A stretch of 63,953 bases of DNA from Colwellia sp. (GTDB lineage: Bacteria > Pseudomonadota > Gammaproteobacteria > Enterobacterales > Alteromonadaceae). Under the pieces are notes generated by a model. That model did no database searches. It was given only the letters and a program-made list of their open reading frames with translations, and had not been told where the DNA came from. The DNA is taken from positions 1 through 63,953 of the forward strand of contig JABSOX010000028.1 in the NCBI GenBank assembly GCA_013215655.1. The letters are read 5' to 3'. Positions 4,149-63,953 of this stretch are shown here, one piece after another. Each line of letters begins with the position of its first letter. Position 1 is the stretch's first letter. Position numbers and translations under genes: made by a program.

Positions 4149-5128
4149 GCGATTTAGTCAACGACCCTGAAGAACTTTATCAACAGGGTTTTGCGCCGCT
4201 ATTAAGATATTTAGACGCCAATGCACCTTTAGCCAAACGCATCGGTTATTCAATATCGCCTAAACAAGATTTTGTCCGTTTTGGTCAAACACCTTTACTG
4301 CATTTTCATTCGTCAGCGTTCACTAAGGTGAAATTTGACACTAACAGTGGCGACTATAAACTTAAAAATAGTTATTGGGGCATGCTAGGCATCAATGGAC
4401 CTTTGCCATCACACCTTACTGAATATGCTATAGAAAGAAGTTTTCGATTAAAAGACAATACTTTTGCAGAGTTTTTAGATATTTTTAATCATCGTTTTAT
4501 TTCACTATTTTATCGTGCTTGGGCGGATGCCGAGCCTACGGTAAGCCATGACAGACCTGAACATGACATTTTTAAACAACATCTCAGTGCCTTCTCAGGT
4601 GAATCAAGTACGGGTCAAAATACTTTTGATCAAAACAAAAATATACATCAATACCTAGCCGGACTATATAGTCAGAAAAATCGTAGTGCTAAAACACTGA
4701 GTCAACTACTTACCGAGTACTTACATCTTGACGTTAGTGTCGATGAATTTCAGGGACGTTGGTACGATTTACAACCAAGTGAACAAACACAACTTGGACA
4801 AAACAATGCCAATTTGGGTATTAGTAGTTTAATAGGCACACGTACATACCAACGCAGTTTTAATTTTGCTATCAATATTGGCCCTTTAGATTATCAACAA
4901 TATATTGCTTTGCTGAATAATAAACATTGTTTAGACACGATTGTTGAACTAACACAAAAAGCGGTTGGCCAAGAATATGAATTTTCAATCAATATCGTCT
5001 TAAAAGCACGGCAAACACAAGCATGTCAGCTAGGCTCAGCAAAACTTGGAATAAATTCATGGTGTCAGGGTAAGTTAAGTCATTTAGCTCAAAATGACCC
5101 CATAATCGTCTTTAAAAAAGCATGTTAA
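4112..5128 (+). CDS. tssG: T6SS baseplate protein TssG
   Basis: This is the TssG (VasB/ImpH) baseplate protein and partner of TssF. It has 338 residues. Characteristic segments are the early FAPLLRYL, then SYWGMLGINGPLPSHLTEYA, FLDIFNHRFISLFYRAW and near the end LGTRTYQRSFNFAINIGPL. It overlaps tssF at its 5' end and is followed by clpV after 24 bases that include an AAGGGAG ribosome site. Confidence 0.94.
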   Translation: MANSNRLAKRYLGDLVNDPEELYQQGFAPLLRYLDANAPLAKRIGYSISPKQDFVRFGQTPLLHFHSSAFTKVKFDTNSGDYKLKNSYWGMLGINGPLPSHLTEYAIERSFRLKDNTFAEFLDIFNHRFISLFYRAWADAEPTVSHDRPEHDIFKQHLSAFSGESSTGQNTFDQNKNIHQYLAGLYSQKNRSAKTLSQLLTEYLHLDVSVDEFQGRWYDLQPSEQTQLGQNNANLGISSLIGTRTYQRSFNFAINIGPLDYQQYIALLNNKHCLDTIVELTQKAVGQEYEFSINIVLKARQTQACQLGSAKLGINSWCQGKLSHLAQNDPIIVFKKAC

Positions 5129-7885: not shown

Positions 7886-8026
7886 GGATTTAGCTTAAAA
7901 AGTGCCCATGCTTTTTTGTGGGCTCTGATATAGAAGGGAATAAAAAGGTCGGGTGATTTAAAGTTACTCTGACCCCTTCTATTATTATCAATGCACTTTT
8001 CTAGTAAACAATAAAGGACAATACAA

Positions 8027-13647: not shown

Positions 13648-13673
13648 CCCAAGTTTAAATTAGTTAAACTTCT

Positions 13674-13701
13674 AGCTGAGATAAATTTAATTATCTCAGC
13701 T
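13674..13701. terminator. hairpin between convergent genes
   Basis: A perfect 11-bp stem AGCTGAGATAA / TTATCTCAGCT with a 6-base loop lies between the converging sheath-fusion gene and lapD. Neither side has a long T run, so termination strength is uncertain. Confidence 0.5.
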
Positions 13702-13732
13702 TACTCCGCGTTGCTATGCCAGTTAGTACACT

Positions 13733-15655
13733 CTACAACGACAGGTCTTCAGGAGGTAATATATACCCTTGATAACCATCAGCTCTTAAAGACGTAAACT
13801 GTTCCAGTTGTGCTTGGTCTTCAATACCGGTGATGATCACTTCAATGTTCAAGCCTTTAGCAACATTCATTAATGCACGGCATAATTCATTGCTTTGATT
13901 TAATTTTTCATAGAATGCAAACGACTGATCTAGTTTAATATAGTCAGGTTGTATTTTTTGTAAATAATCTAGGGAACCTATTTGACGTCCACATTGGTCA
14001 ATACCTACTTTTGCTCCGGCAGATCTTATAACTTCGGCAAGGTGGTTACATTGCTCAAAAGAATTGATTAATGCTGATTCAGGCATTTCAAAAAGAATAC
14101 GACCAACATGTGCTGATTTTTTAAGGAATTTTCCAAGCCATAAAGCAAATTCTGGATCTAATAAGCTATCGTGGGTTAAATTAATGGCAATAGGTTGTTG
14201 TGCTAGTTTTAGAATGTTTTTTCGCTCAATGGTTTCCAATAAACATCGGTCAAGTTGGCTACCTAAAGATAACAATTCAATAAACGGCATAAATTCAGCA
14301 GCGCTTACTATTTGCCCATCAATATTTAAACGACAATATATTTCACGTTGAATAACATCATTTGTTGTCATACTGGTAATTGGCTGCCATTGAAAGACAA
14401 AATGATTGTTATTTATCGAGTCTTCTAGTTTGCTGCGCCATTGTTCACGGCTATATTTTTGAGCTTGTTTTGCATCAATCCAATGACTTATTTTTCCTTC
14501 TCTAAGCGCTTGTTGTAATGCATTGTCCGACTGTGACATTAAGTCAGCTGGTGTCATACCATCAATACGTTGACTAACCCCTAAAGTAAACTGAGTGTTC
14601 GCAGGACAACCTGCCTTGGTAATTTCTTGATTGATGATCCGGATAAGCGTTTGTAAATATGTTTCTATTTGATGATGTTCGGCTTTGGTAATTAAAAATG
14701 CAAATTCGATGTTGCTGATACGAGCAATGATGCTCTCTGTTATTTCTGGTAACTCTACTTTCATCCTATTGGATAATACTTTGATGATTTCATCACGTCC
14801 TTGATAACCGTACTTACTGTGAATTTCATCTAACCAATTAAACTTTGCAAGTATTAAACCTCCGTAACCCGGTTCATTTAACCAGTTATTAAGCTGTGCT
14901 GATAAATACTGGCGATTAGGTAAGTGAGATACTTGGTCAATTAGTTTGTCTTCTTTAAGTTCGTTGACCTCTTGGTCTAGTGTTGAAAAAACTTGTTTTA
15001 ATTGCCCCGACATTGAGTTAATCGCAATAACAACATCTTGTAGTTCCGTCGTTTCTGGTAAGTCGATATCTTGTCCAAAGTTACGTTGTGCAATTTCTTT
15101 TGCTTGTACTGCGATACCATTAAGGGGTTTTAATATTTTGTTCAACCTAAGGCGAAGCGCAAAAATAGATAGAATAAACAACAAAGACAAAATCATAATA
15201 GTGTCGTTCATTATTCGCCATAATTCTTGATAACCTAATGCCGGATGTCCCTCAATTTCAAGGGTTGCAAGTTGCATCCACCCAGAAGTAATGACACTTT
15301 GTTTTGTTTGAGCTTCGAATAACTCCAAGTCAATCAACCATTGAGGCACACCCTCTATAACGATTGGGTTTTCCCACGTTTGTTTTTTGTTATCTGCCAG
15401 CCAAGTTAAGGTGACTTTCCGATAAAAGCCGCCTTCAAAAATAACGTTTACCAATGTTTCAGCAGAAACAACATCTCCTGTTTCTACATGAGGTTGTAAC
15501 ATTAAGCCTAATGAAGTCATGGTATTATTAAGATCATTTTCCATCTGTTGACTCATAAAGTCTCGTGCCTGAGTGAACTGAAAGTAAACCAAACTGGTCA
15601 TCACGAGGAGAAACAGTCCAAATAATAATGAGTTTATTTGTCTAAATAGGGTCAT
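13733..15655 (-). CDS. lapD: LapD-type c-di-GMP receptor controlling adhesin release
   Basis: LapD is an inner-membrane receptor. When its degenerate EAL domain binds c-di-GMP, its periplasmic domain holds the LapG protease so the adhesin stays on the cell. The 640-residue protein has a first membrane helix at about 6-26, a LapD/MoxY periplasmic domain (about 27-150), a second helix (152-170), HAMP (to about 225), GGDEF (240-370) and EAL (385-635). Both catalytic motifs are degenerate: RISNIEFAF replaces RxGGDEF and EIYCRL replaces ExLxR. It should therefore bind but not make or break c-di-GMP. It lies 4 bases after lapG in the same operon. Confidence 0.92.
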   Translation of the reverse strand: MTLFRQINSLLFGLFLLVMTSLVYFQFTQARDFMSQQMENDLNNTMTSLGLMLQPHVETGDVVSAETLVNVIFEGGFYRKVTLTWLADNKKQTWENPIVIEGVPQWLIDLELFEAQTKQSVITSGWMQLATLEIEGHPALGYQELWRIMNDTIMILSLLFILSIFALRLRLNKILKPLNGIAVQAKEIAQRNFGQDIDLPETTELQDVVIAINSMSGQLKQVFSTLDQEVNELKEDKLIDQVSHLPNRQYLSAQLNNWLNEPGYGGLILAKFNWLDEIHSKYGYQGRDEIIKVLSNRMKVELPEITESIIARISNIEFAFLITKAEHHQIETYLQTLIRIINQEITKAGCPANTQFTLGVSQRIDGMTPADLMSQSDNALQQALREGKISHWIDAKQAQKYSREQWRSKLEDSINNNHFVFQWQPITSMTTNDVIQREIYCRLNIDGQIVSAAEFMPFIELLSLGSQLDRCLLETIERKNILKLAQQPIAINLTHDSLLDPEFALWLGKFLKKSAHVGRILFEMPESALINSFEQCNHLAEVIRSAGAKVGIDQCGRQIGSLDYLQKIQPDYIKLDQSFAFYEKLNQSNELCRALMNVAKGLNIEVIITGIEDQAQLEQFTSLRADGYQGYILPPEDLSL

Positions 15656-15659
15656 TTCT

Positions 15660-16376
15660 TTAAAACTCCAGCTTTAGCTTGGGTTGTTTAAGTGTTGCAG
15701 TATTAATACGTTGACGAAGGTCACGCCAAGACTTCAGACGTGAAGATTTACCGCTAAGTACACCACGTCCTTTTTCTTTATTTAGCCATAGCTGACTGCC
15801 ATTAAAGCTATATATTGGTGTAAGGTCGTTACGTTGAGTCGCTGGTTTTATCCGTCCATCGATATTATCCAAAATGAGAGGAATAGAACCTGGAGTATCG
15901 TAATAGGCAAGTACCATATGGTATTGATTGAGGTTTATCGCTTTAACCATAGTGATCCTCATTTTTTCATCAGGAATGCCTAATTCTAGTAACGTATAAT
16001 ATTTGGCAATTGAATAGTCTTCACAATCTCCGCCATTAACACCAATGAACTCAACAGGGGTAGCCCAATAATTGTTAACCCCCCAGAGTTTGATGTCATC
16101 AATGAAACGAAACATATTAAAAAAGCGATTCACTTTTTTTAATGTTTCTTTTTCTGTAACGTCAGTTTCCTGCTTCATCAGTTTGAACCAAGCTCTGCCT
16201 CGTTTCCCTGCTCTTTGTCCATACGTTTTTTCCAAAGAGGTAATAATTTTAGCCTCATCTAGTTGTGAGGCTTGAGATGCATAGAGTGCTGATAATAGCG
16301 AAAAGCTCAGGAGTAATACTGGAATGGGCTTTGATAACATCCATGTTATTAAATGGCTCGTTCTCATATTACTCAA
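15660..16376 (-). CDS. lapG: LapG periplasmic cysteine protease
   Basis: LapG is a bacterial transglutaminase-like cysteine protease (BTLCP family) that cuts the N-terminal retention module of LapA-type adhesins at a di-alanine site. The 238-residue protein has an N-terminal hydrophobic signal segment. The catalytic triad is visible as Cys118 (GGDCEDYS), His153 (YHMVLAY) and Asp170 (LILDNIDGR). It is 4 bases from lapD and 6 bases from the OmpA-like gene. Its substrate is the adhesin at 22131-25787, which has a TAAG site. Confidence 0.93.
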   Translation of the reverse strand: MSNMRTSHLITWMLSKPIPVLLLSFSLLSALYASQASQLDEAKIITSLEKTYGQRAGKRGRAWFKLMKQETDVTEKETLKKVNRFFNMFRFIDDIKLWGVNNYWATPVEFIGVNGGDCEDYSIAKYYTLLELGIPDEKMRITMVKAINLNQYHMVLAYYDTPGSIPLILDNIDGRIKPATQRNDLTPIYSFNGSQLWLNKEKGRGVLSGKSSRLKSWRDLRQRINTATLKQPKLKLEF

Positions 16377-16382
16377 TGTTCA

Positions 16383-17024
16383 TTACAGTGTCTGCTCAAC
16401 GGTATAAATCGTCCACAGCATGTCATCTACATGTTTAGTATGAGTTAATTCAGCCATAATACGACGATTAATAGCATGAGCTTCAGGTGTATCACCCTCT
16501 TCTTCTAATCGTTCAAACCCATAACCAACTGATGAGACACGTTGCTCTGAAAGATTAAAATCATTAACTAGCACAAAAGCGACTGCATTAGCTCTATTAT
16601 CAGATAGTGCTTGGTTTAAATCACCATCGCCCACCATACTAGTGTGCCCCTCAATAACTACGTTAAGCTCTTGGTGCTTCTCCAGAAACTCGGCTAGTTC
16701 TTTAATTTTTCCATAAGCAGAACTTGGAATAACATAAGAGTTGTTGGCAAATTTGATATCAACATTAAGCGGCTCTATACTGGGTGTTTGTCTTCCACAT
16801 CCATAATTATCTATAGTGGCTCCTAACACAGTATTTGCACACTTTTCTCGTGCTTCAATAACACCATCTTTATCATAATCATCTAGATTTTTTAATTGCT
16901 CAACAGAGCTTTCCATTACGACGATGCTAGTTTCGGCACAAGACGTTATCAAAAAAGCACAAAATATGACAGTTAACAACTTTGTAGTTGTACCAATTCT
17001 TGTTAGTTGTAGATTATTCATTAT
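16383..17024 (-). CDS. OmpA-family outer-membrane lipoprotein in the lap operon
   Basis: This is a predicted lipoprotein that binds peptidoglycan. From the ATG at 17024, which has an AGGGAG ribosome site, the 213-residue protein starts with a signal peptide ending in the lipobox LITSC. It then has a short TSP3-like calcium motif (DDYDKDGVIEAREKC) and an OmpA C-terminal domain with NVVIEGHTS and LSDNRANAV. Upstream in-frame starts up to 17108 overlap tolC and lack ribosome sites. The gene overlaps the tolC stop by 11 bases. Such a protein may anchor the export channel to the wall (inference). Confidence 0.85.
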   Translation of the reverse strand: MMNNLQLTRIGTTTKLLTVIFCAFLITSCAETSIVVMESSVEQLKNLDDYDKDGVIEAREKCANTVLGATIDNYGCGRQTPSIEPLNVDIKFANNSYVIPSSAYGKIKELAEFLEKHQELNVVIEGHTSMVGDGDLNQALSDNRANAVAFVLVNDFNLSEQRVSSVGYGFERLEEEGDTPEAHAINRRIMAELTHTKHVDDMLWTIYTVEQTL

Positions 17025-18420
17025 TAGCTCCCTGTTCATAATTATGCTCCCCTTGCCATGCTGACGAACGAGTGACACGTAACGAGTCAAGCAACTGTCC
17101 TGTAACATTTAATAAACGATATCTTGCACTAAGTTCACTAAATTTTGCATCCAAATAATCTTGGCGCGCTTGAAAAAGTTCATTTTCTGTATCAAGTAAA
17201 TCCAATAAGTTTCTTTGCCCTAAACTAAATTGTTCTTTATACGCTAATTGCGTTTCTTTGGAGGTGATAATATGTTGTTTGATGTATTGTTTTTGTAAAC
17301 CCAACATTTCAAAAGCATTCCACGCAAGTCCAAAACTTTCAGTTACTTGACGATGGGCACTATAATTTATTTCTTTTGCCTCAGTCACTTTATATGCGGC
17401 GCCACGCTCTTGCGCTGAATCCCTGCCACCGGAAAATAAATTGTACCTTAAACGCAACATCGCGGTTACTTCGTTACGATGCCCTCCTACATTTGCAAAG
17501 GTACGGTTGAGACCCGTTTCTCCTGCAATATCATTGTCAGAACTTGCACTTAGCTCAAATGACAATGTTGGATAATAGCCTGCTTTGGTGGATTTTTTAA
17601 AAGAACGCGCCGCATTAATATCCTGTTGTGCCGATTTTATAACGGGATGATGTTCAATCGCAAAATTTAAGCCATTGTCATGATTTTTAGGTAACATATC
17701 AGCATCGGGTACCGGCATTACCAAGTCTTTTGGTGGGGTATTTGTTAAACGTATAAATTGTGTTCTGGCATCTAAAGAATTATTACGTGCAGCAATCATA
17801 TTTGATTGTGCTCGCGCTAGTCGTCCGGTAACTTGCGACAAATCAGCAACGCTGCCCAATCCTGATTCCGTACGTTCTTTTATTTGTTCATAGATTACCT
17901 GATGAGAGGCAATGTTTCTTTCAGCTAATACAATCAGTTGCTCTGTTTTCAAATAATTCAAGTAGGATTTACTTACTTGTAACGCAAGGTCTTCAGCTGT
18001 TGCAATCAATGTCCATTTTTCAGCACTCGCCTCATACGTCGTGCGGTCTATTTCATTGCTGGTAAACATTCCATCAAAAATAATTTGTCTGAGACTAAGA
18101 CCAAATTCACCACGATATTCGTCAGTTTTACCATCATCATAACCAAATGAGCTTCTGCGATTACCGGGATTGTCGGTATGTTCATAACCATAACCAGCCG
18201 TTAGGTCAATAGTCGGTAAATAGCCTGCTGATGCTCGATTAACATCTTCTTCTTTTGACTTAAATCGAGCAAATGATTGACGGATATCTGGATGAGAGTC
18301 CAGTGCATACGCAACAGCTTCTTCCAAACTCTGTGCGTTTACTTGGGTAGAACATAGTACAGACAAGTTCAGCAATCCAATTGCTCCTATCCTACTAAGT
18401 TTACATTTAGTTAATTTCAT
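17014..18420 (-). CDS. TolC-family outer-membrane channel of the adhesin exporter (LapE-like)
   Basis: This is the outer-membrane component of the type I secretion system. The 468-residue protein has a signal peptide ending near VNAQS, then the two-fold repeated outer-membrane efflux protein architecture: SLEEAVAYALDSHPDIRQS at the start, GLGSVADLSQV in the first repeat and SLGQRNLLDLLDTENELFQAR in the second. It follows the HlyD gene by 57 bases and is coupled to the OmpA lipoprotein. It should export the adjacent adhesin. Confidence 0.9.
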   Translation of the reverse strand: MKLTKCKLSRIGAIGLLNLSVLCSTQVNAQSLEEAVAYALDSHPDIRQSFARFKSKEEDVNRASAGYLPTIDLTAGYGYEHTDNPGNRRSSFGYDDGKTDEYRGEFGLSLRQIIFDGMFTSNEIDRTTYEASAEKWTLIATAEDLALQVSKSYLNYLKTEQLIVLAERNIASHQVIYEQIKERTESGLGSVADLSQVTGRLARAQSNMIAARNNSLDARTQFIRLTNTPPKDLVMPVPDADMLPKNHDNGLNFAIEHHPVIKSAQQDINAARSFKKSTKAGYYPTLSFELSASSDNDIAGETGLNRTFANVGGHRNEVTAMLRLRYNLFSGGRDSAQERGAAYKVTEAKEINYSAHRQVTESFGLAWNAFEMLGLQKQYIKQHIITSKETQLAYKEQFSLGQRNLLDLLDTENELFQARQDYLDAKFSELSARYRLLNVTGQLLDSLRVTRSSAWQGEHNYEQGANNE

Positions 18421-18477
18421 GAATAATTCCGTTTTATTGTTATTTATTATTTATTATCACTTATTTTTAAAAAATCA

Positions 18478-19851
18478 CTACCGCTCTCGCAGTGCTGCTT
18501 CATTTGCTCTTAAAATAGGGTTTAAGATATATTCTAATATAGTACGTTTTCCTGTGATAACATCAACTTCCGCCATCATACCGGGAATAATAGGCATTTC
18601 TTCGTTGTTCTTATTTTTGATACTTGAAGCATCTGTTCTGACTCTGATGAGGTAGAAGCTATTTCCGTCTTCGTCTTGCGTTGTATCGGCGCTAATATGT
18701 TCTACTTTTCCAGTTAAGCCGCCATACCTGGTAAAGTCGTAGGCCGTTATCTTAACCACAGCAGGTAAGCCTGGATAAATAAATCCGATATCTCGAGGCT
18801 TTATTTTCGCTTCTACCATTAATTTATCTTCTGTTGGTACAATTTCAACGATCGTCTCACCTGGTTTAACGACACCACCTAGTGTATTAATGTGTATTGT
18901 TTTTATAGTGCCAACCACTGGCGACCTAATAAGTGCCTTAGTTACTTTATCTTGAGCGCCCACTTGCGACTCATTGATTCGAGATAACTTATTTTGCATT
19001 TCATTGAGTTGGGCACGAGCTTCTGTTCTATAGATCAGCGCTGTTTCCCGGCGATTTAATATCGACTCTTGTAATGACGAATTTAATTTAGGTGACAATA
19101 AACGAACTACACTTAATTCACCTTTGAGTTCATTCACACTACGTTCTAATTTGTATAATTCAATCTTGGAAACGATGTTCTTTGCGGCGAGCGGTCGAGT
19201 TAACATGAGCTCTTTGGTTGCCAATTGATAACTGATTTTCATGGTTTCTATTTTAGATACCAATTCGGCCACTTCTTGTTCTCGTTGCTGTATTTGTTGA
19301 CTCTGAATAGCCAGTTGATTATTTAGATTATCTAAACGGCCTGAATATTCATCTTGTTGCCTTTTAACCATTAATTCAGCATTTGTATTAAGATCTTCTG
19401 GGTAAATTGGCTCCTGCTTATTTACCTTAATTTGCAGTCTCCAGTCATCATTATTGCCGATAAGAATACTAGATAACTCTGCCCTTAAGCGGATAATATT
19501 TGATCTTAAGCTATCGACTTCTTGCTTTTGTTCGGCAAAATCTGAGCGAAAACGGGTATCATCAATTCTTGCAATAGGTTGCCCTTTAGTTACTTGCATA
19601 CCTTCTTGTACAAACAATTCTTGTAAAACACCCCCATCTAAACTTTGAATGATTTGTATTTGAGAAGAAGGTATTATTTTTCCAGAACCAGAAGTAACTT
19701 GTTCCAAGGCGGCAAAGCTTGACCAGACAATAAAACTAAAGAGTAGTGCTGCCATTGCCCAAATAGTTAATCGGTGCAAACTTGGTACTTCGGTAAGCAT
19801 TGCTCCATAGACATCATCGGCCATTTCTAAATCTTGTTGGCTTACTTTCAT
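18478..19851 (-). CDS. HlyD-family membrane fusion protein of the adhesin exporter (LapC-like)
   Basis: This is the periplasmic adaptor of the type I exporter. The 457-residue protein has one N-terminal membrane helix (about 30-48), a biotinyl/lipoyl-like half motif, a long coiled-coil region with many Gln/Glu (about 95-300), and the HlyD C-terminal signature near PGMMAEVDVITGKRTILEYILNPI. Its start overlaps the ABC transporter stop by 4 bases (ATGA), so both are made from one mRNA. Confidence 0.92.
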   Translation of the reverse strand: MKVSQQDLEMADDVYGAMLTEVPSLHRLTIWAMAALLFSFIVWSSFAALEQVTSGSGKIIPSSQIQIIQSLDGGVLQELFVQEGMQVTKGQPIARIDDTRFRSDFAEQKQEVDSLRSNIIRLRAELSSILIGNNDDWRLQIKVNKQEPIYPEDLNTNAELMVKRQQDEYSGRLDNLNNQLAIQSQQIQQREQEVAELVSKIETMKISYQLATKELMLTRPLAAKNIVSKIELYKLERSVNELKGELSVVRLLSPKLNSSLQESILNRRETALIYRTEARAQLNEMQNKLSRINESQVGAQDKVTKALIRSPVVGTIKTIHINTLGGVVKPGETIVEIVPTEDKLMVEAKIKPRDIGFIYPGLPAVVKITAYDFTRYGGLTGKVEHISADTTQDEDGNSFYLIRVRTDASSIKNKNNEEMPIIPGMMAEVDVITGKRTILEYILNPILRANEAALRER

Positions 19852-52458: not shown

Positions 52459-52501
52459 GGTGGCTATAGCTCAGTTGGTAGAGCCCCGGATTGTGATTCC
52501 G
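52459..52501 (+). tRNA. tRNA-His 5' half, truncated at the anticodon stem
   Basis: GGTGGCTATAGCTCAGTTGG starts a tRNA-His (extra 5' G, anticodon GTG in ATTGTGATT) that continues to the 3' side of the anticodon stem. At 52502 the match to tRNA-His ends; no variable loop, T arm or acceptor 3' strand follows. The likely cause is integration of the element that begins here. Confidence 0.88.
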
Positions 52502-52628
52502 ATATCCACGACCTCAAAAAATCTCTTTTATTCCTATTTCACACTTTAACAATCAATCTTATAAAACCACTAAGAATATAGTCCGTAGCTTAATTAACAC
52601 CGATTATAATCTTTATTCATATCTAATA

Positions 52629-52705
52629 GACTTTCTTCTTTATAACTCGCTCCGTTCCATATTAGTTGCACAAATGTATCTATCAGGATCTAAACCGTTA
52701 CAAAC
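52629..52705. repeat. direct repeat, left copy
   Basis: About 77 bases match 56756-56831 at roughly 85%, sharing CCGTTCCATATTAG and CTATCAGG.TCTAAAC. On the minus strand both could encode the end of a protein (LDPDR..CA.NMER..L and stop), so they may be two remnants of one gene tail. The copies flank the 53282-56111 module. Confidence 0.7.
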
Positions 52706-52838
52706 AAGGTACAAAAATTGGTTCTTTCGTTAGCATTGGTGTTAAGTAATTAACTTTAAATATCAACTTCTGTTACTGTTTATTTTTTGTTCTTTTTGTT
52801 CTTTTTGTGGATGTTCTAAAATATAAGACATTATTGAA

Positions 52839-53281: not shown

Positions 53282-54766
53282 ATGCAAGTGGCACTTCAAT
53301 TTCCAATTGCAGATGCGAGACCATTTAGTTCTACTACGAATTTGCGTTTACCGTTACCTGACTTTCCTGAACCTATCACTGAAATCAACCCCCAGTTTGT
53401 TCATTATTTTGGTAAAGCATGTGAAAGAATAGATGAGCCTGATGAAGCGTGGCCTGATGAGATAAAATACGTTAGGGCAAATAGAGCTTTGAAATTTGAT
53501 AAGCTTGAAAGTCGGTATTGTGGTTTTCCAAGTAGTAAATCTCAACCTAAATGTACATATCGTCGTCTCTTAAGTGATGGTTCAGCTGTTGTTCGAGCCG
53601 AGGTTGGTTTCAGACTTATTAATTCTGTAAAAAATAAAAAATATTCACTTAAAGAAGTACTTTCTATTATAAGTGATATCGCTGAGATTCCTTGTATAGT
53701 TCCAAGCCCGGGTAATATTGACAAAATACGCCCTATTTTGGCGCAGGGTATTAATTTAACTAAATTATATTCATTTGCTAGCAGTAAGCGCTCTGCAGAG
53801 AAAGAACCTGTAAATTTTAATCTTGTCGAATCTGGAAGTCCTCTCATAATTGTAGAATTAAAGGCAAATGAAGTAAATGTAGATATATGGACAAAATATA
53901 GTAATAGAGCAATTAAAGTTGAAAGTAAAAACGTAAATGGTGCGAATGTATTATTCTGCCGATTTGGAACAAAAGTAGGAATAGTATCAACTTGGATATT
54001 AGAAAAGGGTAGTGCCTCGAATGAGCAACTGCGAAGTATACGGGTATGTCTAACTAGAATTCATGCAGAAAGAGAAGTGCTGGATCTTATATTAAAACAA
54101 ATTCATCGTGGAAATATTCTAAACCCTTCCGATGAAGAATCTATTAATCGTTTAGATGAATATTTTAATAAGCGATTAAATATAATTAAACGCGAAATGT
54201 GGGGGGGGATGAAACAATCTGCGATAGTAAACGCTATTGACGCCACACATGATGTAGTTCGATCGGCAATTCAAGCTCAATTAGTGGCTCGTTATGAAGG
54301 TGGGCGTCGGCAAGTATGGAATAAAATAAATAATTATCAAGAAGATAGACAATCTTCAAAGATATATAAAACAATTTTTATAGAGAATGGTGGAATTATG
54401 ACAGATAAAAACATTACAGTTGGTGGTACCGGAAACATTGTTAATATTGCTGAGTATATGTCAAATGTGACTAATACCGTAAACAATAATATGTCTTCGC
54501 CTAACGGTGAAGAAGATATAAAACAGATGATTATACAGCTAACAAAAGAAATTGAAGATATATCCTCTATAGCTGATGCTAGTCAAATAGAGATTATGGG
54601 GAAAAACCTCGAAGCTTTAAGTAAAGAATCTGTTAGTGTTCAACCCGAGAAACGATGGTATGAATTCAGTATTACTGGAATCAAAGAAGCAGCCCAAGCA
54701 GTTGGTAGTATTGCAAACCCAATAATAGAAACTTTAAAGAAGCTGAGTACGTTAGTACTTACTTAG
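53282..54766 (+). CDS. unrecognised protein with C-terminal effector-associated-like domain
   Basis: I cannot name the N-terminal 370 residues. Residues about 372-494 have a pattern I have seen in conflict-system proteins: NITVGGTGNIVNIAEYM then an alternating helical stretch, ending in SITGIKEAAQAVGSIANPII and a hydrophobic tail (LKKLSTLVLT). The middle contains CRFGTKVGIVSTWILEKG. A ribosome site AAGGA lies 11 bases upstream of the start. It is followed by the HEPN-motif gene after 91 bases, and both lie between direct repeats. A joint defence role is inferred. Confidence 0.7.
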   Translation: MQVALQFPIADARPFSSTTNLRLPLPDFPEPITEINPQFVHYFGKACERIDEPDEAWPDEIKYVRANRALKFDKLESRYCGFPSSKSQPKCTYRRLLSDGSAVVRAEVGFRLINSVKNKKYSLKEVLSIISDIAEIPCIVPSPGNIDKIRPILAQGINLTKLYSFASSKRSAEKEPVNFNLVESGSPLIIVELKANEVNVDIWTKYSNRAIKVESKNVNGANVLFCRFGTKVGIVSTWILEKGSASNEQLRSIRVCLTRIHAEREVLDLILKQIHRGNILNPSDEESINRLDEYFNKRLNIIKREMWGGMKQSAIVNAIDATHDVVRSAIQAQLVARYEGGRRQVWNKINNYQEDRQSSKIYKTIFIENGGIMTDKNITVGGTGNIVNIAEYMSNVTNTVNNNMSSPNGEEDIKQMIIQLTKEIEDISSIADASQIEIMGKNLEALSKESVSVQPEKRWYEFSITGIKEAAQAVGSIANPIIETLKKLSTLVLT

Positions 54767-54857: not shown

Positions 54858-56111
54858 ATGGCTTTAAATTTACAAGTTCCATTATCAATGAGTAAGGGTC
54901 TATCAAAAGCAATAGTCTTTCATGGTCTAGAGTTTTCTATAGTAGTGCATCCAACTATTCACGGGGACCCGATACTTACCTCACAAGGATTCTATTACCT
55001 AGAACAGATGGATTCTGTAGCTGAAATTCGTTTTGAAACTGGGGTTGCTCGTTTAAACGATAATCAAATTGAATACCTAATAGATAACTATCTATTTGAA
55101 TATAGTGTCATCCACAAGGAATCACAGCTTAATACCAAAGTTACAGATTTTTATTATTCGCGTAGGGATCCCAGTGATATTTACCACTTATATGATCAAT
55201 TTAATACTCAAGCTTTAGTGTTAGACGAATTGAATGATACTTCTATATTAAGTATTCAATCTCTTGAAGGAGAGCCTGAATACTATTTCCATGATTATTG
55301 CTTGGTTAAATCTTACAGTGAAGATATGGTTAAAAATCACGTTAGTGCTTTGTCACAATTGGTAAATAAAAAGCTATTAGTGAAAATATTGCCTACAGAA
55401 GAGCGTGACGGTTATTTCGGTAAACTTCGCATGTTAAAGTGTGACGATGGATTAATTGATTATTATCAAGCAAATACGTTTGAGTATGGATTTGGTCCGA
55501 GAGATCTCAAGCCTGGTCAAGAATGGATAACACTAAGTTCAGAAATTAAAGGAAATATTGATTTTGAATTGCCAATAGAAACCGTTTATCTTAACAAAAA
55601 GTACAACCCAATATTACTACCTTATTACTTCTCTGGTTTAAAAGAAGTTAATCCATTATTGAGTTTCATCGGCTTTTATAATGTCCTAGAGTATTACTTC
55701 GAAGAAGCCCCTGTCCTTTTAAGTAAAACAGCTAAGGGAGAGAAAGAACAAATAGAATGCGTGTTGCTTTGGTTAGTTACTGATCAATCTATAACTGATT
55801 TCTTTAATAGACAAAGTCATGACTATAATTCCGTTATTGGAAATGAAATAAAAACGTCTTCAACCGTTAGCATTAAAGGGTTGGATATTAAGAGCGGATT
55901 AAATTTAATTAAAAAACTTTCAATCTGGATATATAACATTAGGTGTGCTGTTATTCATTCTAAAAAAAGTCGAAATAACAAAGAGGTCGCGATATTTAAA
56001 CCATATTCAGAAGACGTAAATAATATGGCAGTATCCATTCCAATAATTAAATGGTTGGCTATTAAATGTATTAAAAAAGACAGTGAATTGAATAGGTTTA
56101 GTGATTTATAA
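54858..56111 (+). CDS. HEPN-motif protein, possible RNase of an abortive-infection module
   Basis: The 417-residue protein ends in a helical domain (about 265-400) with the segment YYFSGLKEVNPLLSFIGFYN and, at residues 362-367, RCAVIH, an R-x4-H motif as in HEPN RNases. The pattern resembles ApeA-type HEPN domains. The N-terminal part (about 1-230) is beta-rich and unrecognised. Many HEPN proteins cut tRNA or mRNA and stop growth upon phage infection. The start lacks a strong ribosome site. Assignment rests on motif and domain shape. Confidence 0.65.
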   Translation: MALNLQVPLSMSKGLSKAIVFHGLEFSIVVHPTIHGDPILTSQGFYYLEQMDSVAEIRFETGVARLNDNQIEYLIDNYLFEYSVIHKESQLNTKVTDFYYSRRDPSDIYHLYDQFNTQALVLDELNDTSILSIQSLEGEPEYYFHDYCLVKSYSEDMVKNHVSALSQLVNKKLLVKILPTEERDGYFGKLRMLKCDDGLIDYYQANTFEYGFGPRDLKPGQEWITLSSEIKGNIDFELPIETVYLNKKYNPILLPYYFSGLKEVNPLLSFIGFYNVLEYYFEEAPVLLSKTAKGEKEQIECVLLWLVTDQSITDFFNRQSHDYNSVIGNEIKTSSTVSIKGLDIKSGLNLIKKLSIWIYNIRCAVIHSKKSRNNKEVAIFKPYSEDVNNMAVSIPIIKWLAIKCIKKDSELNRFSDL

Positions 56112-56324
56112 GCGATGGAGGTAATTATGCGTTCAGAAGATATATCCGGATATGCTTACCCTGTATTAGCTGTATGAACAGAATACTGGCAAAGCTTTAC
56201 TTCGTCATCCCATGATTATGTCGAGTTGCCTTTTGAGATTCTCGATGGGGGGGTCTAATGAAAGGCTTATTCGATGAGTTGTATTATGACTGGAGGTAAC
56301 CATTTAAGATTTTCTCTACTATTT

Positions 56325-56509
56325 TAAATCACTGCCTTTAGCGATTCACGAACAACTTGGCTAAGTTTATTAACATTAGCTTCTGTATGTACTTTTAGTC
56401 AATGATCTTCTCTGATATCAAGATAAAAACTTAACCGTACTTTCTTTCTAGGTAGTTTCATTTTAGCTCTACCGCCGATAGAGTTCTCGAGCTCCCTTAA
56501 TGTCTGCAT
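56325..56509 (-). pseudogene. decayed ribbon-helix-helix gene
   Basis: Starting from the ATG at 56509 the frame reads MQTLRELENSIGGRAK then KVRLSFYLDIREDH and a stop, and after a frame change LKVHTEANVNKLSQVVRESLK. This matches the intact RHH protein at 61000-61206 along its length. The stretch 56112-56324 holds only tiny fragments (for example a 16-codon frame after GGAGG) and no gene I can support. Confidence 0.8.
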
Positions 56510-56755
56510 CTTAATTTCTTAACTCCTAGGGCAATGATAGCGTCATATACTTGCTCATGTGCTATTCGTGTTTTATTAAACTGAGACTCACATTTTACTT
56601 GATGAACTTTGCTATACACTCGCTGCCATCTTTAGCCACTCGTTCGAATAATGTTGTTGTGCGAATACCGAAAATAGGGAATTTCCCTAATGCATCAACT
56701 AAGTAATCTTTAGCGTGTTTAAATTTACTATCACTAGTGGAATTATTGATGTTTG
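56497..56755 (-). pseudogene. decayed 3' part of a parA-like gene
   Basis: The minus strand encodes FPIFGIRTTTLFERVAKDGS and, after a stop and frame change, TRIAHEQVYDAIIALG, matching the C-terminal 80 residues of the intact ParA (61203-61805). The ATPase front half is absent; the sequence joins the direct repeat at 56756. It is followed by the decayed RHH gene, in the same order as the intact pair. Confidence 0.85.
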
Positions 56756-56831
56756 GACTTTCGCCTTTATAACTTGCCCCGTTCCATATTAGCTGCACAA
56801 TTGTGTCTATCAGGGTCTAAACAGTACAAAC
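56756..56831. repeat. direct repeat, right copy
   Basis: Right partner of 52629-52705 at about 85% identity. It abuts the truncated parA remnant. The following 56832-57153 is AT-rich; a minus-strand frame there could encode a small hydrophobic protein, but I see no ribosome site or family match. Confidence 0.7.
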
Positions 56832-57153
56832 ACAGTAATGGTGCAGTTTATTTCTCTAGTAATGGCGTAGGTTGAATACGTTTATTCCCGTTTACTATTT
56901 ACTGTCTTCTTCTGGTTGTCACTAGGTCTATCGTGCTATCATTACCACATAAGACACACCTACAAAACAAAAATAACACCACACCAAAAATTACCCCATT
57001 AAAAACACCAATAAGACACCATAGGATTATATATACATAGATTTCAACAATAAATGCCCTATGGTGGCACTTTGCTATATTTAACTTGCATGCAGAAACA
57101 ATTAAACATATCATACCGATTAATAAGACCACTATAGCAAGAGTAACACATCT

Positions 57154-57504
57154 ATGTTTGACAAAATATATAGCACGGTTAAAAGGAACGGTGGATTTTT
57201 AACAATTAAGATGGAACGTTTGAGGGATGTCTACGGTGTTTCGAAGCTTGGGCCACGAGTGATAAAGAAAATTGAACTCCAGCTTAAAGCAGCACGATTA
57301 AAAAGTGTCGACCCCTTAACTTTAGATCGTTCGGACAAGGTGCGATTGTATATTCTAGATGGGCGTGAAGAAGAACTGGTGAATGCTTTTAAAAATCCAG
57401 GGAGTGAGTTTGACGACATTTTATCTAGGGCTAGTAATAATAGGATTGATTACCTCAACGCTATAGAGCGAATTGCTGAAATTGTTGACGAGACTTTAGA
57501 GTGA
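57154..57504 (+). CDS. hypothetical island protein
   Basis: The 116-residue protein has no family I know. It is helical, with a segment LRDVYGVSKLGPRVIKKIELQL that could be a winged-helix recognition region and an acidic C-terminus. It is followed after 64 bases by another small gene on the same strand. Confidence 0.55.
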   Translation: MFDKIYSTVKRNGGFLTIKMERLRDVYGVSKLGPRVIKKIELQLKAARLKSVDPLTLDRSDKVRLYILDGREEELVNAFKNPGSEFDDILSRASNNRIDYLNAIERIAEIVDETLE

Positions 57505-57568: not shown

Positions 57569-57913
57569 ATGAAAAAGCTAAAACCTTCGATTATATCCCC
57601 TATTAATTCACTTTTAGATGACCCTGTAATTTCTACTCTACGGGATGAGAAAATTGATGATGGGATGCATATTCGACTAACTCGAGTACAAAACATCAAT
57701 GGTGAGTATGCTTATATTCGTGTTTCAAATAAACGCTATCTTTTAGTTAATCAAAAGACAGGGCTTTATCTTTCAAATATTCCTGATGATTTGTCGGGGT
57801 TAGATATAAAAGATTATTTACAAGAAAATACAGAGGCAAATGATTTTTTACCACTTGATGCTGTACATAATTACGATCCTGTTTATCAAGAACTCGTTGG
57901 TATCTACTCATAG
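57569..57913 (+). CDS. hypothetical island protein
   Basis: I do not recognise this 114-residue protein. It has a beta-rich middle (GEYAYIRVSNKRYLLVNQKTGLYL) and an acidic C-terminus. AAAGGACAT upstream is a good ribosome site. It precedes a 335-base gap. Confidence 0.6.
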   Translation: MKKLKPSIISPINSLLDDPVISTLRDEKIDDGMHIRLTRVQNINGEYAYIRVSNKRYLLVNQKTGLYLSNIPDDLSGLDIKDYLQENTEANDFLPLDAVHNYDPVYQELVGIYS

Positions 57914-58167: not shown

Positions 58168-58228
58168 GGGGTCTACCAGCTTGTAAAGTATCTAATAGCA
58201 GAATAGACAAGCTATAAAACCATACCCC
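58168..58228 (+). promoter_or_regulatory. nested inverted repeats upstream of the FtsZ-paralogue operon
   Basis: GGGGT and ACCCC enclose AGCTTGT and ACAAGCT, which enclose 22 bases. As RNA this could fold into a two-part stem 20 bases before the 58249 gene. The gap 57914-58248 also holds an AT-rich hairpin near 58135-58153 and no supported gene. Confidence 0.5.
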
Positions 58229-58248
58229 GTATTATATGGAAAATAGAC

Positions 58249-59472
58249 ATGTCTAAATTAACTACCAATAAAGTATTTTCTTTTTCTCAAGCTATCGCAG
58301 CACAGATAAAAGAAGATTGCCCACAAATAAATATTTCTTCAAATAAACTATCAACAATCATAGCTAAAGAAGTTGGCTCCTCTCCTGCTGAACTGGATCT
58401 TTTACTTCGCCTTCACAATAAATATCTGGAGTCGAATTGTGGCCCAGGTTTATCACTGATTGGAGTATTTTACAACCAAGAGGAAAATGAAGCAGATATA
58501 GCCTTATTAAAAGTAGGGAAGAATAAAATTGAAGAAATTCGCATTGAAAAAAAAGTAGACCTAACAGGAAACGATAAAAGAACTAAAAAAATATTTAAGC
58601 TTATCAATAATTATAGCGATACGATGGGCTTCACCGTTGGCTGGTTAAATGCTAGCAATGCAGCTACTTTAGATCAAGCCAAAGATTATTGCCATAAGGT
58701 AGTAAAGAAAACACCACCTAATAACTGCATTAATATTGAGACGAGAACTTTTAGCGAAACATTTAAAAACGAAAAAGATAGAGATTCCTTTAATTTTATA
58801 AAAAGTAAAAATACTGCCCAGCTTGGTATTTATATGGTTACACACTCACATCCATATTTACCTTTACAGATAAGTTATTATGTTGGTAATTTTCAACATC
58901 CAGATTTTAGAAATATTTATGCAATATCGCTTAACAATAAACCCAGTAATATTGGTGATTTTAAGAAATTAGAACTCGAAGGTAATACTTTTCCAAGAAA
59001 CAGTAGTAGTGACACATTAAGCGTAAAATTGAATACAATGCATCTATTTACCCAATCATTGACTAAGACGAGTGTTTTATTTGATATTTTAGATGTTAGC
59101 TTTAACCATAATTTTGAAGAAATTAGAGAAACATATACCTATAACAGCCAAGCTATTCTAGGTTATCAAAACAACCTAAATGATAAAAAGGAAGTCACTT
59201 CCCAACCCTTACAAGCAATTGTTCCAAACGAACAATATAGTTATTCGAATGTTAAACCCTTATTTGATTATGATATGGATAAAAACCCGCAAAAATATCA
59301 AACACTAACTAAAGGCTTCAAATTCGAAAGTGATTTTTTTAGTGTAAATCATAATTTATCACACACACCGATAAAAATAGAACGAAAAACCCACGCTAAA
59401 AATATACTCGACAAAGCACTAGAGCTAAAAGAGCAATTCACCACTCCAGAAAAACTAAGTATTAATAATTAG
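58249..59472 (+). CDS. unrecognised protein upstream of the FtsZ paralogue
   Basis: The 407-residue protein has no family I can name. It is soluble, with Asn/Lys-rich composition, a LLLRLHNKYLESNCGPGLSLIGVFY stretch near residues 50-75 and alternating beta segments later (LQISYYVGNFQHPDF). I considered the NdpA nucleoid family and found no match. It is 72 bases upstream of the FtsZ paralogue and probably co-transcribed, so it may be a partner. Confidence 0.65.
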   Translation: MSKLTTNKVFSFSQAIAAQIKEDCPQINISSNKLSTIIAKEVGSSPAELDLLLRLHNKYLESNCGPGLSLIGVFYNQEENEADIALLKVGKNKIEEIRIEKKVDLTGNDKRTKKIFKLINNYSDTMGFTVGWLNASNAATLDQAKDYCHKVVKKTPPNNCINIETRTFSETFKNEKDRDSFNFIKSKNTAQLGIYMVTHSHPYLPLQISYYVGNFQHPDFRNIYAISLNNKPSNIGDFKKLELEGNTFPRNSSSDTLSVKLNTMHLFTQSLTKTSVLFDILDVSFNHNFEEIRETYTYNSQAILGYQNNLNDKKEVTSQPLQAIVPNEQYSYSNVKPLFDYDMDKNPQKYQTLTKGFKFESDFFSVNHNLSHTPIKIERKTHAKNILDKALELKEQFTTPEKLSINN

Positions 59473-59544
59473 ATATTGCTTGGTCCTCAAAGTAAATCAA
59501 ACTGTAAATAAAAAATACTAATAATTTTAGCGTGGTATAAAAAA

Positions 59545-60633
59545 ATGACGAAAAACGAAATAGTTGAACTGATGCCTTCAGTAAAGTTGCCACTTATCAG
59601 TGTAATAGGAATAGGTGGGTGTGGCGGAAATACAATAGATTACTTATTTTCTAAATCGCAAGTTGAATCTGAAATGGCTAGATATCTTGGTATAAATACT
59701 GATAGTTCTTCTCTAAGCCACATTAAATCACATGGAAAATTATTAATTGGAGAAGCCCTAACCAGTGGTTTTGGTGCTGGAGCGGATCCAGAAATTGGCC
59801 TAAAAGCTGCTAAAGAATCTGAAGAACAAATACGAGCATTTTTGGAAAAGAGTAGCGTGGTTATAATCGTTTGTGGGCTAGGTGGTGGTACCGGAACTGG
59901 CGCCAGTCCTTTTATAAGTCAGTTGGCAAAAGAAATGGATATTCCAGTTATAGCTGTAGCAACATTACCTTTTAGATCAGAAGGGAAGCTAAGGTGTCAC
60001 TATGCCAAAGAAGGAGTTATAGAACTTAAAAAATCGACTGATGCGTGTATATTGCTAGAGAATGATTTACTTATTTCAGCACTTAATAAAGAGGTTGGTT
60101 TATTTTCAGCATTTGAACATTCAAATAGAGTTTTGTATAACCTTGTGCTCGCTCTTATAGAGTTATTAAGCGGATCAGGCATAGTGAATGTTGATCTTAA
60201 AGATTTCTCTAAGGTACTTGGTTTTCAGGGTGATTCTGTTTTAGGCGTGGGGAAAGCGGAGTCAGAAGATTCTATAATCGATGCGTTAGAAAATGCCATT
60301 AATAACCCGTTGGTAAGCCAAGTTGACATCAGTGATGCTGCTGGAGTCATTATTCACCTATGTTGTAAAAATGAACCAAGTTTAAAGACTTACGAGGCAA
60401 TATTGCATCATATAGAAAACAAACTTACGCACAAATTGCCTTTGATAATATCTGGCGTTACACAAACTCAGAATATTGATTGCGAACTTGAAATCCTTAT
60501 TCTCGCCACAGGAATTTCAGAGATAAACAGTGAAAATCGCACTGAGAAAGCTCTTACTTTTAATGATACAGGAAAAGAAGTCGAACAAGCAGATTACCTC
60601 GACATTCCAGCATTTATCAGAAAAAATACATAA
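59545..60633 (+). CDS. FtsZ paralogue on the island
   Basis: This is a tubulin/FtsZ-superfamily GTPase of 362 residues. The GTP-binding glycine loop IGIGGCGGN (21-29) and the signature GLGGGTGTG (111-119) are intact. The T7 synergy loop N215-V-D217-L-K-D220 keeps the residues that trigger GTP hydrolysis, so it should polymerise. A short linker ends in DYLDIPAFIRKNT, the FtsZ C-terminal peptide that binds FtsA, ZipA, ClpX and division inhibitors. TubZ and phage PhuZ lack that peptide. It could join or poison the host Z-ring. The ribosome site is weak. It sits between unrecognised genes. Confidence 0.9.
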   Translation: MTKNEIVELMPSVKLPLISVIGIGGCGGNTIDYLFSKSQVESEMARYLGINTDSSSLSHIKSHGKLLIGEALTSGFGAGADPEIGLKAAKESEEQIRAFLEKSSVVIIVCGLGGGTGTGASPFISQLAKEMDIPVIAVATLPFRSEGKLRCHYAKEGVIELKKSTDACILLENDLLISALNKEVGLFSAFEHSNRVLYNLVLALIELLSGSGIVNVDLKDFSKVLGFQGDSVLGVGKAESEDSIIDALENAINNPLVSQVDISDAAGVIIHLCCKNEPSLKTYEAILHHIENKLTHKLPLIISGVTQTQNIDCELEILILATGISEINSENRTEKALTFNDTGKEVEQADYLDIPAFIRKNT

Positions 60634-60646
60634 GGAAAAATGACAT

Positions 60647-60916
60647 ATGAATCTTAATGGTAGCTTAGCATTAGAGCTTAAGTCGGGAGAATTAATACTA
60701 CATTCCACTGATTTTGAACTTCAAGAGGAAGATTATAGATACCTTGGCGACGGGGAAAGACAATTAGAACAACTATATACATATACCAATGAGACTGATG
60801 ACGGAGAATACATCAACCTTTCTATACAAGTCACAAAGTACAATGGCAGTATCAAATTATACCCCTTAGAGAATAGAGGAGATGGTAACGTCACTGAAGC
60901 CTGGCTGGGTGTGTAA
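60647..60916 (+). CDS. hypothetical small protein after the FtsZ paralogue
   Basis: This 89-residue protein starts 13 bases after the FtsZ paralogue with an AAGGAAAAA ribosome site, so it is in the same operon. It is acidic and beta-rich (LALELKSGELILHS, YINLSIQVTKYNGSIKLY). I know no family. A strong terminator follows. Confidence 0.65.
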   Translation: MNLNGSLALELKSGELILHSTDFELQEEDYRYLGDGERQLEQLYTYTNETDDGEYINLSIQVTKYNGSIKLYPLENRGDGNVTEAWLGV

Positions 60917-60966
60917 AACATTTAAGTCAATATTTTACCTAGCTTACTCTAATAAATGCATTCAAA

Positions 60967-61001
60967 AGAGATAACCTACTTTGGGTTATCTCTTTTTTTT
61001 T
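60967..61001. terminator. bidirectional intrinsic terminator
   Basis: AGAGATAACC / GGTTATCTCT stem followed by nine T residues ends the FtsZ operon. It can also serve the converging RHH gene. Confidence 0.9.
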
Positions 61002-61206
61002 ATTTATCATCAACGCCTTTCAATAGCGGTTTTACCAAATTACGTACCATTTCACTTACACATAAATCATTTTTTGTCACGTATACTTTCAATAAATCGA
61101 AATCCTCTTGGTTCAAATAAAAACTTAGACGAACCTTTGAATTACCTGACTTTGGTCTGCCCCTAAGAGATTTCTGGACATCACTAAATGTTTGTAATTT
61201 CATCAT
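61000..61206 (-). CDS. ribbon-helix-helix DNA-binding protein, ParA partner
   Basis: This 68-residue protein has a basic N-terminus (SLRGRPKSGNS), a beta strand KVRLSFYL and two helices (EDFDLLKVYVTKN, SEMVRNLVKPLL), the RHH pattern of ParG-like centromere binders. It overlaps parA by 4 bases (ATGA). It should bind the operator upstream of parA and a centromere site. Confidence 0.8.
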   Translation of the reverse strand: MMKLQTFSDVQKSLRGRPKSGNSKVRLSFYLNQEDFDLLKVYVTKNDLCVSEMVRNLVKPLLKGVDDK

Positions 61207-63746: not shown

Positions 63747-63953
63747 ATGGCTGTAAAAGCTAAAAATACCAAAGCTAGTGATAAGACTAGCACTGATAAA
63801 CCGATTAAAGCGGATGAAAAATTAAACGATGAGATTATCTCTGACTTACCCGTTGCAGCTGAAGTCACTGAAGTCGCTGAAGTCGCTGAAGTCGCTGAAG
63901 TCGCTGAAGTCGCTGAAGTCGCTGAAGTCGCTGAAGTCGCTGAAGTCGCTGAA
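63747..63953 (+). CDS. repeat protein with (Ala-Glu-Val)n, 5' part
   Basis: An AAGGAAAA ribosome site precedes MAVKAKNTKASDKTSTDKP, a Lys/Thr-rich start that turns into AEV tripeptide repeats (first copy AEV-TEV) and stays open to the window end. The repeats are amphipathic enough for a helix or a rod-like stalk. The rest is unseen. Confidence 0.75.
   Translation, partial: MAVKAKNTKASDKTSTDKPIKADEKLNDEIISDLPVAAEVTEVAEVAEVAEVAEVAEVAEVAEVAEVAE
63858..63953 (+). repeat. 9-bp tandem repeat GCTGAAGTC
   Basis: About ten and two-thirds copies of GCTGAAGTC run in frame to the window edge. All are identical except copy two (ACTGAAGTC). The purity suggests recent expansion by slippage. Confidence 0.95.

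Follow-up and report, generated by a model that had tools for sequence, protein, structure and literature searches.

The housekeeping FtsZ (NCBI model TIGR00065) combines Tubulin and FtsZ_C domains with GTP-binding loops, a T7 loop carrying an N-D-D triad and a C-terminal LDIPAF peptide, whose usual partners are FtsA and ZipA. All these features recur in an additional FtsZ, here named FtsZ2, encoded in the stretch of Colwellia sp. DNA analysed here (63,953 nucleotides, contig JABSOX010000028.1 of assembly GCA_013215655.1; hereafter the window). However, FtsZ2 is only 35% identical to the host's own FtsZ, scores below the TIGR00065 cut-off, belongs to a separate clade and lies at a mobile locus, and most of its relatives adjoin a gene for a regulator of the WYL/WCX type. 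A second FtsZ on a genomic island is known from the magnetosome island, where FtsZm lies with magnetosome genes; unlike FtsZ2, FtsZm is reported to lack the C-terminal part, and we know of no link between it and a WYL gene. TubZ/RepX and PhuZ are tubulin-superfamily GTPases that are also carried on mobile DNA, but they match FtsZ2 far more weakly. FtsZl1 and FtsZl2 are, like FtsZ2, FtsZ-superfamily proteins additional to a conventional FtsZ; FtsZl1 has no recognisable T6-H7 elements and is mostly found beside vWA genes, and FtsZl2 has no conserved neighbours (PMC2875224). In contrast, FtsZ2 is a near-complete FtsZ with an FtsZ_C domain, and matches Tubulin_2 only at an E-value of 0.2. It was already known that bacteria can have extra ftsZ copies outside the dcw cluster, and these have been read as possible subfunctionalisation (PMC9871819).

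The genome that carries the window (5.56 Mb) contains one other FtsZ match, on contig C64, which is the host's own protein. FtsZ2 scores 274.2 bits with TIGR00065, under the housekeeping equivalog cut-off of 295.2, as do a Pseudoalteromonas relative (280.2) and a relative from the same genus (279.9), whereas the host FtsZ reaches 449. In a tree of 76 rows FtsZ2 falls in an accessory set of 23 (support 100/99), where seven rows of its own family form a subset (96/93) that includes it; the host FtsZ groups with the order's housekeeping FtsZ, in a set of 11 (100/100). A second accessory group, the five rows of family f25, stands outside the 23-row clade with weaker support, and the one member tested scores 372.9, above the TIGR00065 cut-off. 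Several long branches, among them the end branch of FtsZ2 itself (1.81), and unsettled bootstrap values make details within the accessory clade unsure. The rows were drawn from 85 extracted FtsZ, nine of which were omitted: seven (L005, L008, L013, L060, L081, L091 and L106; L and G numbers denote loci and genomes of this study) had a 92-100% identical row that was kept, and two (L036 and L048) are broken genes. The initial annotation had named, as the outcome that would undo its proposal, unconserved neighbours together with a recent copy of the host ftsZ. The neighbours are indeed unconserved, but a recent copy is rejected by the 35% identity and the separate clade; by its sequence, FtsZ2 is anciently diverged from housekeeping FtsZ.

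The accessory FtsZ are patchily distributed. Among 394 genomes sampled from the order, 34 have a match to FtsZ2 at E<=1e-64, some of these being housekeeping FtsZ; in the tree, 16 of the genes from the 34 genomes belong to the accessory clade and 5 to the f25 group. In the genus sample, three of six genomes, the window's own included, have a match at E<=1e-62. When a different accessory FtsZ was used as query across the class, mostly single FtsZ matches resulted, and among those tabulated only one genome (G000) had two at E<=1e-62; 30 loci from this search form part of the control ftsZ loci used below. No close relatives of FtsZ2 or of its 407-amino-acid (aa) neighbour were found in viral contigs, by a search that detects close relatives only; phage records gave 25 FtsZ matches, all below 60% identity among the 20 of 25 listed. 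Sister pairs are under constraint: of seven pairs tried, two were saturated at silent sites, and the five with measurable dS gave ratios of nonsynonymous to synonymous change (dN/dS) of about 0.03 to 0.10 (0.077/1.17, 0.042/0.42, 0.051/0.57, 0.051/1.50 and 0.110/1.53).

Pfam places both Tubulin (2.2e-40) and FtsZ_C (3e-13) in FtsZ2 above cut-off. The GTP-binding and T7-loop residues that the initial annotation had pointed out are intact, and the T7 N, D and D are present in 28 of 28 accessory rows. Its observation of an FtsZ-type terminal peptide, foreign to TubZ and PhuZ, is likewise borne out: the FtsZ2 peptide differs from that of the host by one residue, and a short peptide of this kind ends all 28 accessory proteins, degenerate in several. 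FtsZ2 matches the best FtsZ chain at 3.9e-64, plasmid RepX at 5.7e-7 and the PhuZ family at 6.9e-6, and an assignment of FtsZ2 to TubZ or PhuZ is therefore rejected. At ten positions the 23 clade rows and 40 housekeeping rows each hold a residue at 90% or more, but a different one; these include a cysteine in the T1 loop and a phenylalanine directly after the T7 triad. Among 169 columns with hardly any variation in housekeeping FtsZ, FtsZ2 keeps 83, unevenly spread: 50/86 in the GTPase part, 8/14 in the next helix, 1/3 at the start, 8/21 around T7, 9/36 in the C-terminal domain and 7/9 in the linker and end peptide. This pattern suggests that FtsZ2 may have kept the docking of FtsZ while following assembly rules of its own.

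Outside the window, accessory ftsZ genes have a frequent neighbour of another kind. In 21 of 28 accessory loci a WYL/WCX-type gene lies 53-184 bp from ftsZ2, and in none of 52 control ftsZ loci (most loci of either group with about 1.5 kb of flank; the controls include near relatives and 11 loci partly from other phyla). The six WYL queries behind this count were themselves drawn from the locus set, five from larger or the same views of counted loci and one from L063, a broken gene outside the 28. In 18 of the 21 the WYL gene is upstream on the same strand and in 3 it is convergent; since the gene order varies among lineages and the linkage nevertheless persists, a functional tie is indicated. 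The identities of the WYL proteins correlate with those of their FtsZ2 partners (r 0.948 over 21 loci, 0.898 over 12 representatives), with 0/2000 permutations as high in either case, in a test that ignores shared species history. The initial annotation had looked for partners among the genes of the window, where this link is not visible because that gene is missing. Beyond the 28 loci, two broken loci (L063 and L065), with a WYL gene or pieces of one 1.1-1.5 kb away, were excluded from the count. The same-genus genome G395 (L111, L114), with no accessory FtsZ match at E<=1e-62, retains stop-ridden WYL pieces, consistent with loss of the pair. A Sir2-family gene directly 3' of an FtsZ paralogue was seen twice: in L063 at 3609-4427, where FtsZ2 is broken (gene named by eye from sequence), and, as annotated, in L021 at 7137-7976, where the FtsZ groups with housekeeping FtsZ.

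The neighbour of ftsZ2 in Pseudoalteromonas is annotated as a WYL-domain protein. Like the regulators BrxR, CapW and PafBC, the WYL-type proteins carry a WCX domain (Pfam cut-off passed by 6/6 tested) and match a PADLOC WYL model (5/5 tested). According to published work, phage defence systems accompany 48% of the WYL regulators in the BrxR family, and BrxR itself keeps its defence island repressed (PMC9122601); in mycobacteria, PafBC takes part in the response to DNA damage (PMC9122588). FtsZ is mentioned nowhere in the main texts of the BrxR-family paper (PMC9122601) and the CapW paper (PMC9122588), nor is WYL in those of two FtsZ-family papers (PMC2875224, PMC9871819). Among the titles and abstract openings covered, none connects an FtsZ paralogue to a WYL regulator. 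The FtsZ-WYL pairing thus looks new within the literature covered, and the FtsZ2 protein itself looks like a variant of known FtsZ.

On Pseudoalteromonas chromids the pair lies near yfhL in five of eight records holding that gene, at a distance of about 1 to 11 kb. Within 12 kb upstream of the pair are type I restriction genes and PDC-M26A/B in L017, DRT type 1 and viperin in L018, viperin and two DUF262 genes matching SspE/Orf5 models in L020, and annotated AAA/McrC genes in L019, the first similar to REase_II and PDC-S02 and the second without a PADLOC match; L016 has an annotated HipA-family gene, also without one. PADLOC matched none of three genes directly upstream of the pair (838 aa in L019, 320 aa in L016, 205 aa in L020), and in G366 (L054) one of two genes tested gave only a weak PDC-S12 match. 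The remaining three yfhL records show no pair in the 15-16 kb viewed, nor among five Pseudoalteromonas FtsZ matches, the plasmid gene tables being incomplete. In one of these records only 8 bp separate yegQ from yfhL; this resembles an empty site, because the island of L016 sits between the same two genes. The type of regulator, known from phage defence and DNA damage, and the occurrence of some pairs among antiviral genes together hint at a form of division control under attack that has not been described.

The following explanation is favoured, with a probability of about 0.42 for the account as a whole. FtsZ2 is most likely a GTP-binding FtsZ that forms its own filaments: the retained GTP and T7 residues speak for a GTPase that is active and assembles, and the altered T7 side and C-terminal domain, with residues held across the clade, for separate filaments and against mixed ones. 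The C-terminal peptide would dock FtsZ2 on the same membrane tethers and regulators as the host FtsZ (FtsA, ZipA and others), since the retention of this peptide suggests contact with the partners that FtsZ usually has. Once made, FtsZ2 would compete for these partners or redirect them, so that division is slowed, stopped or reshaped; the effect on host division, or the growth arrest, envisaged in the initial annotation is a plausible idea. The ancestral WYL-ftsZ2 module was probably a switch, releasing altered or blocked division in response to a nucleic-acid or damage signal, for instance that of phage infection. By analogy with the repression of a defence island by BrxR and the damage role of PafBC, a change or block in division that can be induced is favoured here. 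The FtsZ2 of the window would then have become cargo of an integrase/ParA island, without a WYL gene and with private genes for a 407-aa and an 89-aa protein. The clade, the catalytic and docking motifs, the low dN/dS, the linkage and co-divergence and the cargo position were computed directly; filaments, docking, a division block, its inducing signal and any role of the private genes are inferred. It is also possible, if somewhat doubtful, that these loci represent an undescribed phage- or damage-responsive system of marine Gammaproteobacteria, in which an FtsZ paralogue under a WYL-type regulator stops division or baits phage FtsZ inhibitors, the window holding a mobile, regulator-less variant with a new 407-aa protein.

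Several results weigh against the favoured explanation. Seven accessory loci have no WYL link (the window, L070, L023, L024, L026, L027 and L030), although L070 does have a WYL gene on its contig, at a distance of about 14 kb, and the 28 loci include near relatives. FtsZ2 belongs to the accessory clade but has no WYL gene within 200 bp. Six WYL queries found no WYL gene near it, and a single same-genus query (E<=1e-8) found no WYL gene of the same-genus type in the genome. Views of 20 kb of five WYL-less loci (L052, L053, L055, L056 and L059) likewise showed none. The Pfam WYL model is passed by only one of six proteins, from a locus outside the 28, and the five linked proteins fail it; for two WYL-type proteins tried, a sequence search of the PDB gave no match, BrxR and CapW chains included. 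PADLOC, searched up to an E-value of 1, returned no known anti-phage system for FtsZ2, nor anything for the 407-aa and 89-aa proteins. Finally, the four f25 loci viewed share one 402-aa chromosomal neighbour on the FtsZ side, so that the pair is not merely island or defence cargo.

The main rival, rather unlikely, sees FtsZ2 as a decoy or sensor: it would bind a phage inhibitor of FtsZ and either shield the host FtsZ or, as a complex, set off a partner, a part that the 407-aa protein may play in the window. Phages are reported to encode FtsZ inhibitors, and activation of CapRel-Ebc requires T7 Gp0.4 and FtsZ in combination, FtsZ variants presumed to be monomeric being sufficient (PMC13423816), so that FtsZ can serve in phage detection. 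The FtsZ concerned there is that of the host, working with a fused toxin-antitoxin, and the word "paralog" is absent from the main text of that paper (PMC13423816). The position of the Pseudoalteromonas copies downstream of defence-type genes would suit a decoy, as would that of the window's FtsZ2 cargo, which adjoins a unit with a PDC-M14B-like gene. However, the region predicted to bind Gp0.4 is that around T7, where only 8 of 21 housekeeping-invariant residues remain and the clade holds residues of its own; the catalytic triad, which a pure decoy would not need, is kept in 28/28; and Pfam, PADLOC, PHROGs and NCBIfam match the 407-aa protein to no known effector.

Compared with the favoured inducible division module, it is unlikely that FtsZ2 is a spare or specialised FtsZ which sustains division while the main FtsZ is blocked or under some special condition. 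The retained GTP and T7 residues and C-terminal peptide would fit such a role, as does the published reading of second copies outside the dcw cluster as possible subfunctionalisation (PMC9871819), but the score of FtsZ2 lies under the equivalog cut-off that the host's own protein passes, the family is patchy in the order and mobile in the window, and the docking peptide is degenerate in several members.

At the window locus (Table 1) the initial annotation had proposed a three-gene operon behind a structured leader. The 13 bp between ftsZ2 and the 89-aa gene, followed by a strong terminator-like stem, support the operon for these two genes, but a 72-bp gap separates the 407-aa gene from ftsZ2. 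Codon usage favours the annotated frame in all three genes, with a score for ftsZ2 on a par with other genes. The structured leader finds no support: its fold is unremarkable (z -0.78; 41 of 200 shuffles fold equally well), and an inverted repeat of equal or greater length occurs in 65 of 400 random 81-bp pieces of the window, although the exact repeat pattern occurs once against 0.02 expected in shuffled sequence. Over the terminator, Rfam gave a weak match to the small RNA STnc250 (25.2 bits, gathering threshold 42). The three-gene order, expected on other islands, is found nowhere else except in a Colwellia metagenome-assembled genome that holds the same DNA (100% over 11,838 bp, all three genes present), perhaps from the same or a very near organism and hence not counted as independent.

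Table 1. Features of the FtsZ2 locus and its island in the window (aa, amino acids; ORF, open reading frame)
Feature	Position	Strand	Basis
Accessory FtsZ, FtsZ2, 362 aa	59545..60633	+	Pfam Tubulin and FtsZ_C; TIGR00065 274.2 bits vs cut-off 295.2; accessory clade 100/99
T1 GTP loop GGCGGNT, clade-specific Cys at residue 26	59614..59634	+	C in 23/23 accessory-clade rows; G in 38/40 housekeeping rows
T4 tubulin signature GGGTGTG	59881..59901	+	Motif comparison
T7 loop NVDLKD, N/D/D kept	60187..60204	+	N, D, D in 28/28 accessory rows
C-terminal peptide YLDIPAFIRK (host FtsZ, YLDIPAFLRK)	60595..60624	+	Motif comparison
407-aa protein gene, function unassigned	58249..59472	+	ORF; only sub-threshold TPR_8 Pfam match
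89-aa protein gene, 13 bp 3' of FtsZ2	60647..60916	+	ORF; weak PHROG matches
Terminator-like site, 15-pair stem 60964-60996 and T-rich tail after it	60964..61006	+	Stem search
7-bp inverted repeat in leader, doubtful function	58178..58213	+	Pattern scan
116-aa ORF in FtsZ2 cargo unit	57154..57504	+	No Pfam family above cut-off
114-aa ORF in FtsZ2 cargo unit	57569..57913	+	No Pfam family
Small repressor-like gene beside ParA, 68 aa	61000..61206	-	PHROG 876 transcriptional repressor 9.5e-6; similar gene at same place in G396
ParA-like ATPase, island backbone, 200 aa	61203..61805	-	PHROG ParA 2.8e-11; Pfam just below cut-off; 54% identical gene at G396 site
Tyrosine integrase, 392 aa	62000..63178	+	Pfam 3.6e-29; 92% identical in G396
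Inner border repeat copy, left edge of FtsZ2 cargo unit	56756..56873	.	83% to L121 1992-2110; 56756-56825 87% like 52629-52698
Outer border repeat copy, left edge of tandem unit	52629..52741	.	Repeat comparison
Remnant of second ParA/repressor module	56323..56751	-	84% to L121 14127-14555

The 407-aa protein is found only in the near-identical Colwellia genome, with no match in 393 other genomes of the order, 368 of the class and five of the genus (the order and class samples overlap), in plasmids, phages and viral contigs (close relatives only), among PDB sequences, or in PADLOC, PHROGs and NCBIfam. The 89-aa protein has no FtsZ-linked relative; it has weak PHROG matches to families of unknown function (0.004 and 0.039), distant ORFs in two Burkholderiaceae plasmids (31.5% identical, E 2e-6, not near FtsZ) and weak matches within 1360-residue frames in two genomes of the class.

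The island setting first read from the window is confirmed by its integrase, ParA-like gene and border repeats and by a related island in the same-genus genome G396, which occupies the same chromosomal place, beside a DUF1285 gene, with integrase, ParA-like gene and the genes that follow. Neither such a ParA nor such an integrase occurs in the 20 kb examined at that place in G395, G397, G398 and G194. The left border repeat occurs twice and the two copies enclose a ParA remnant, so that two units apparently stand in tandem. The cargo of the second unit comprises the 116-aa, 114-aa, 407-aa, FtsZ2 and 89-aa genes. The G396 unit holds transposase- and VapBC-like genes (named by eye from sequence) instead and no FtsZ2, and the FtsZ2 of the window therefore looks like exchangeable cargo.

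It is quite improbable that the window's FtsZ2 is a functionless passenger left over after loss of its regulator. The missing WYL gene, the private neighbours and the long end branch would be expected of one, but FtsZ2 has an unbroken reading frame, keeps its T4 loop, T7 triad and host-like C-terminal peptide, and scores as well as other genes in codon usage. Segregation or stabilisation of the island by FtsZ2 in the manner of TubZ, also raised by the initial annotation, has the mobile setting and the nearby ParA-like gene in its favour and is nonetheless very improbable, as the protein is of the FtsZ and not the TubZ type, the ParA-like gene is part of the backbone and also occurs in the FtsZ2-less G396 island, and several relatives lie in seemingly ordinary chromosomal neighbourhoods.

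Other features of the island region were noted. The first unit carries a gene for a 494-aa protein (53282-54766), which in its C-terminal part matches PDC-M14B, a defence candidate, at 5.5e-7, and one for a 417-aa protein (54858-56111) with weak DzbB (0.02) and MauJ (0.015) matches; the two perhaps form a defence pair. Just left of the outer border repeat, at 52460-52510, Rfam gave a tRNA-like match (30.1 bits, gathering threshold 29) where ARAGORN found none. A 9-bp coding tandem repeat (EVA repeats) occupies 63858-63947 at the contig end, and the G396 copy of the gene has no such repeat. In L003, to the right of the first island, 13326-18510 holds a second integrase gene alongside one with weak resemblance to DNA polymerase B (0.0002, below cut-off), which suggests another element adjoining the island.

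If the pairing of WYL-type genes with accessory ftsZ is functional, these bacteria hold a second FtsZ under a type of regulator otherwise associated with the control of phage defence and DNA damage responses. Division control would then be tied to immunity, in a concrete module present in culturable Pseudoalteromonas. Such a link would also offer a fresh reading of the extra bacterial ftsZ copies, which have been noted before but little explained.

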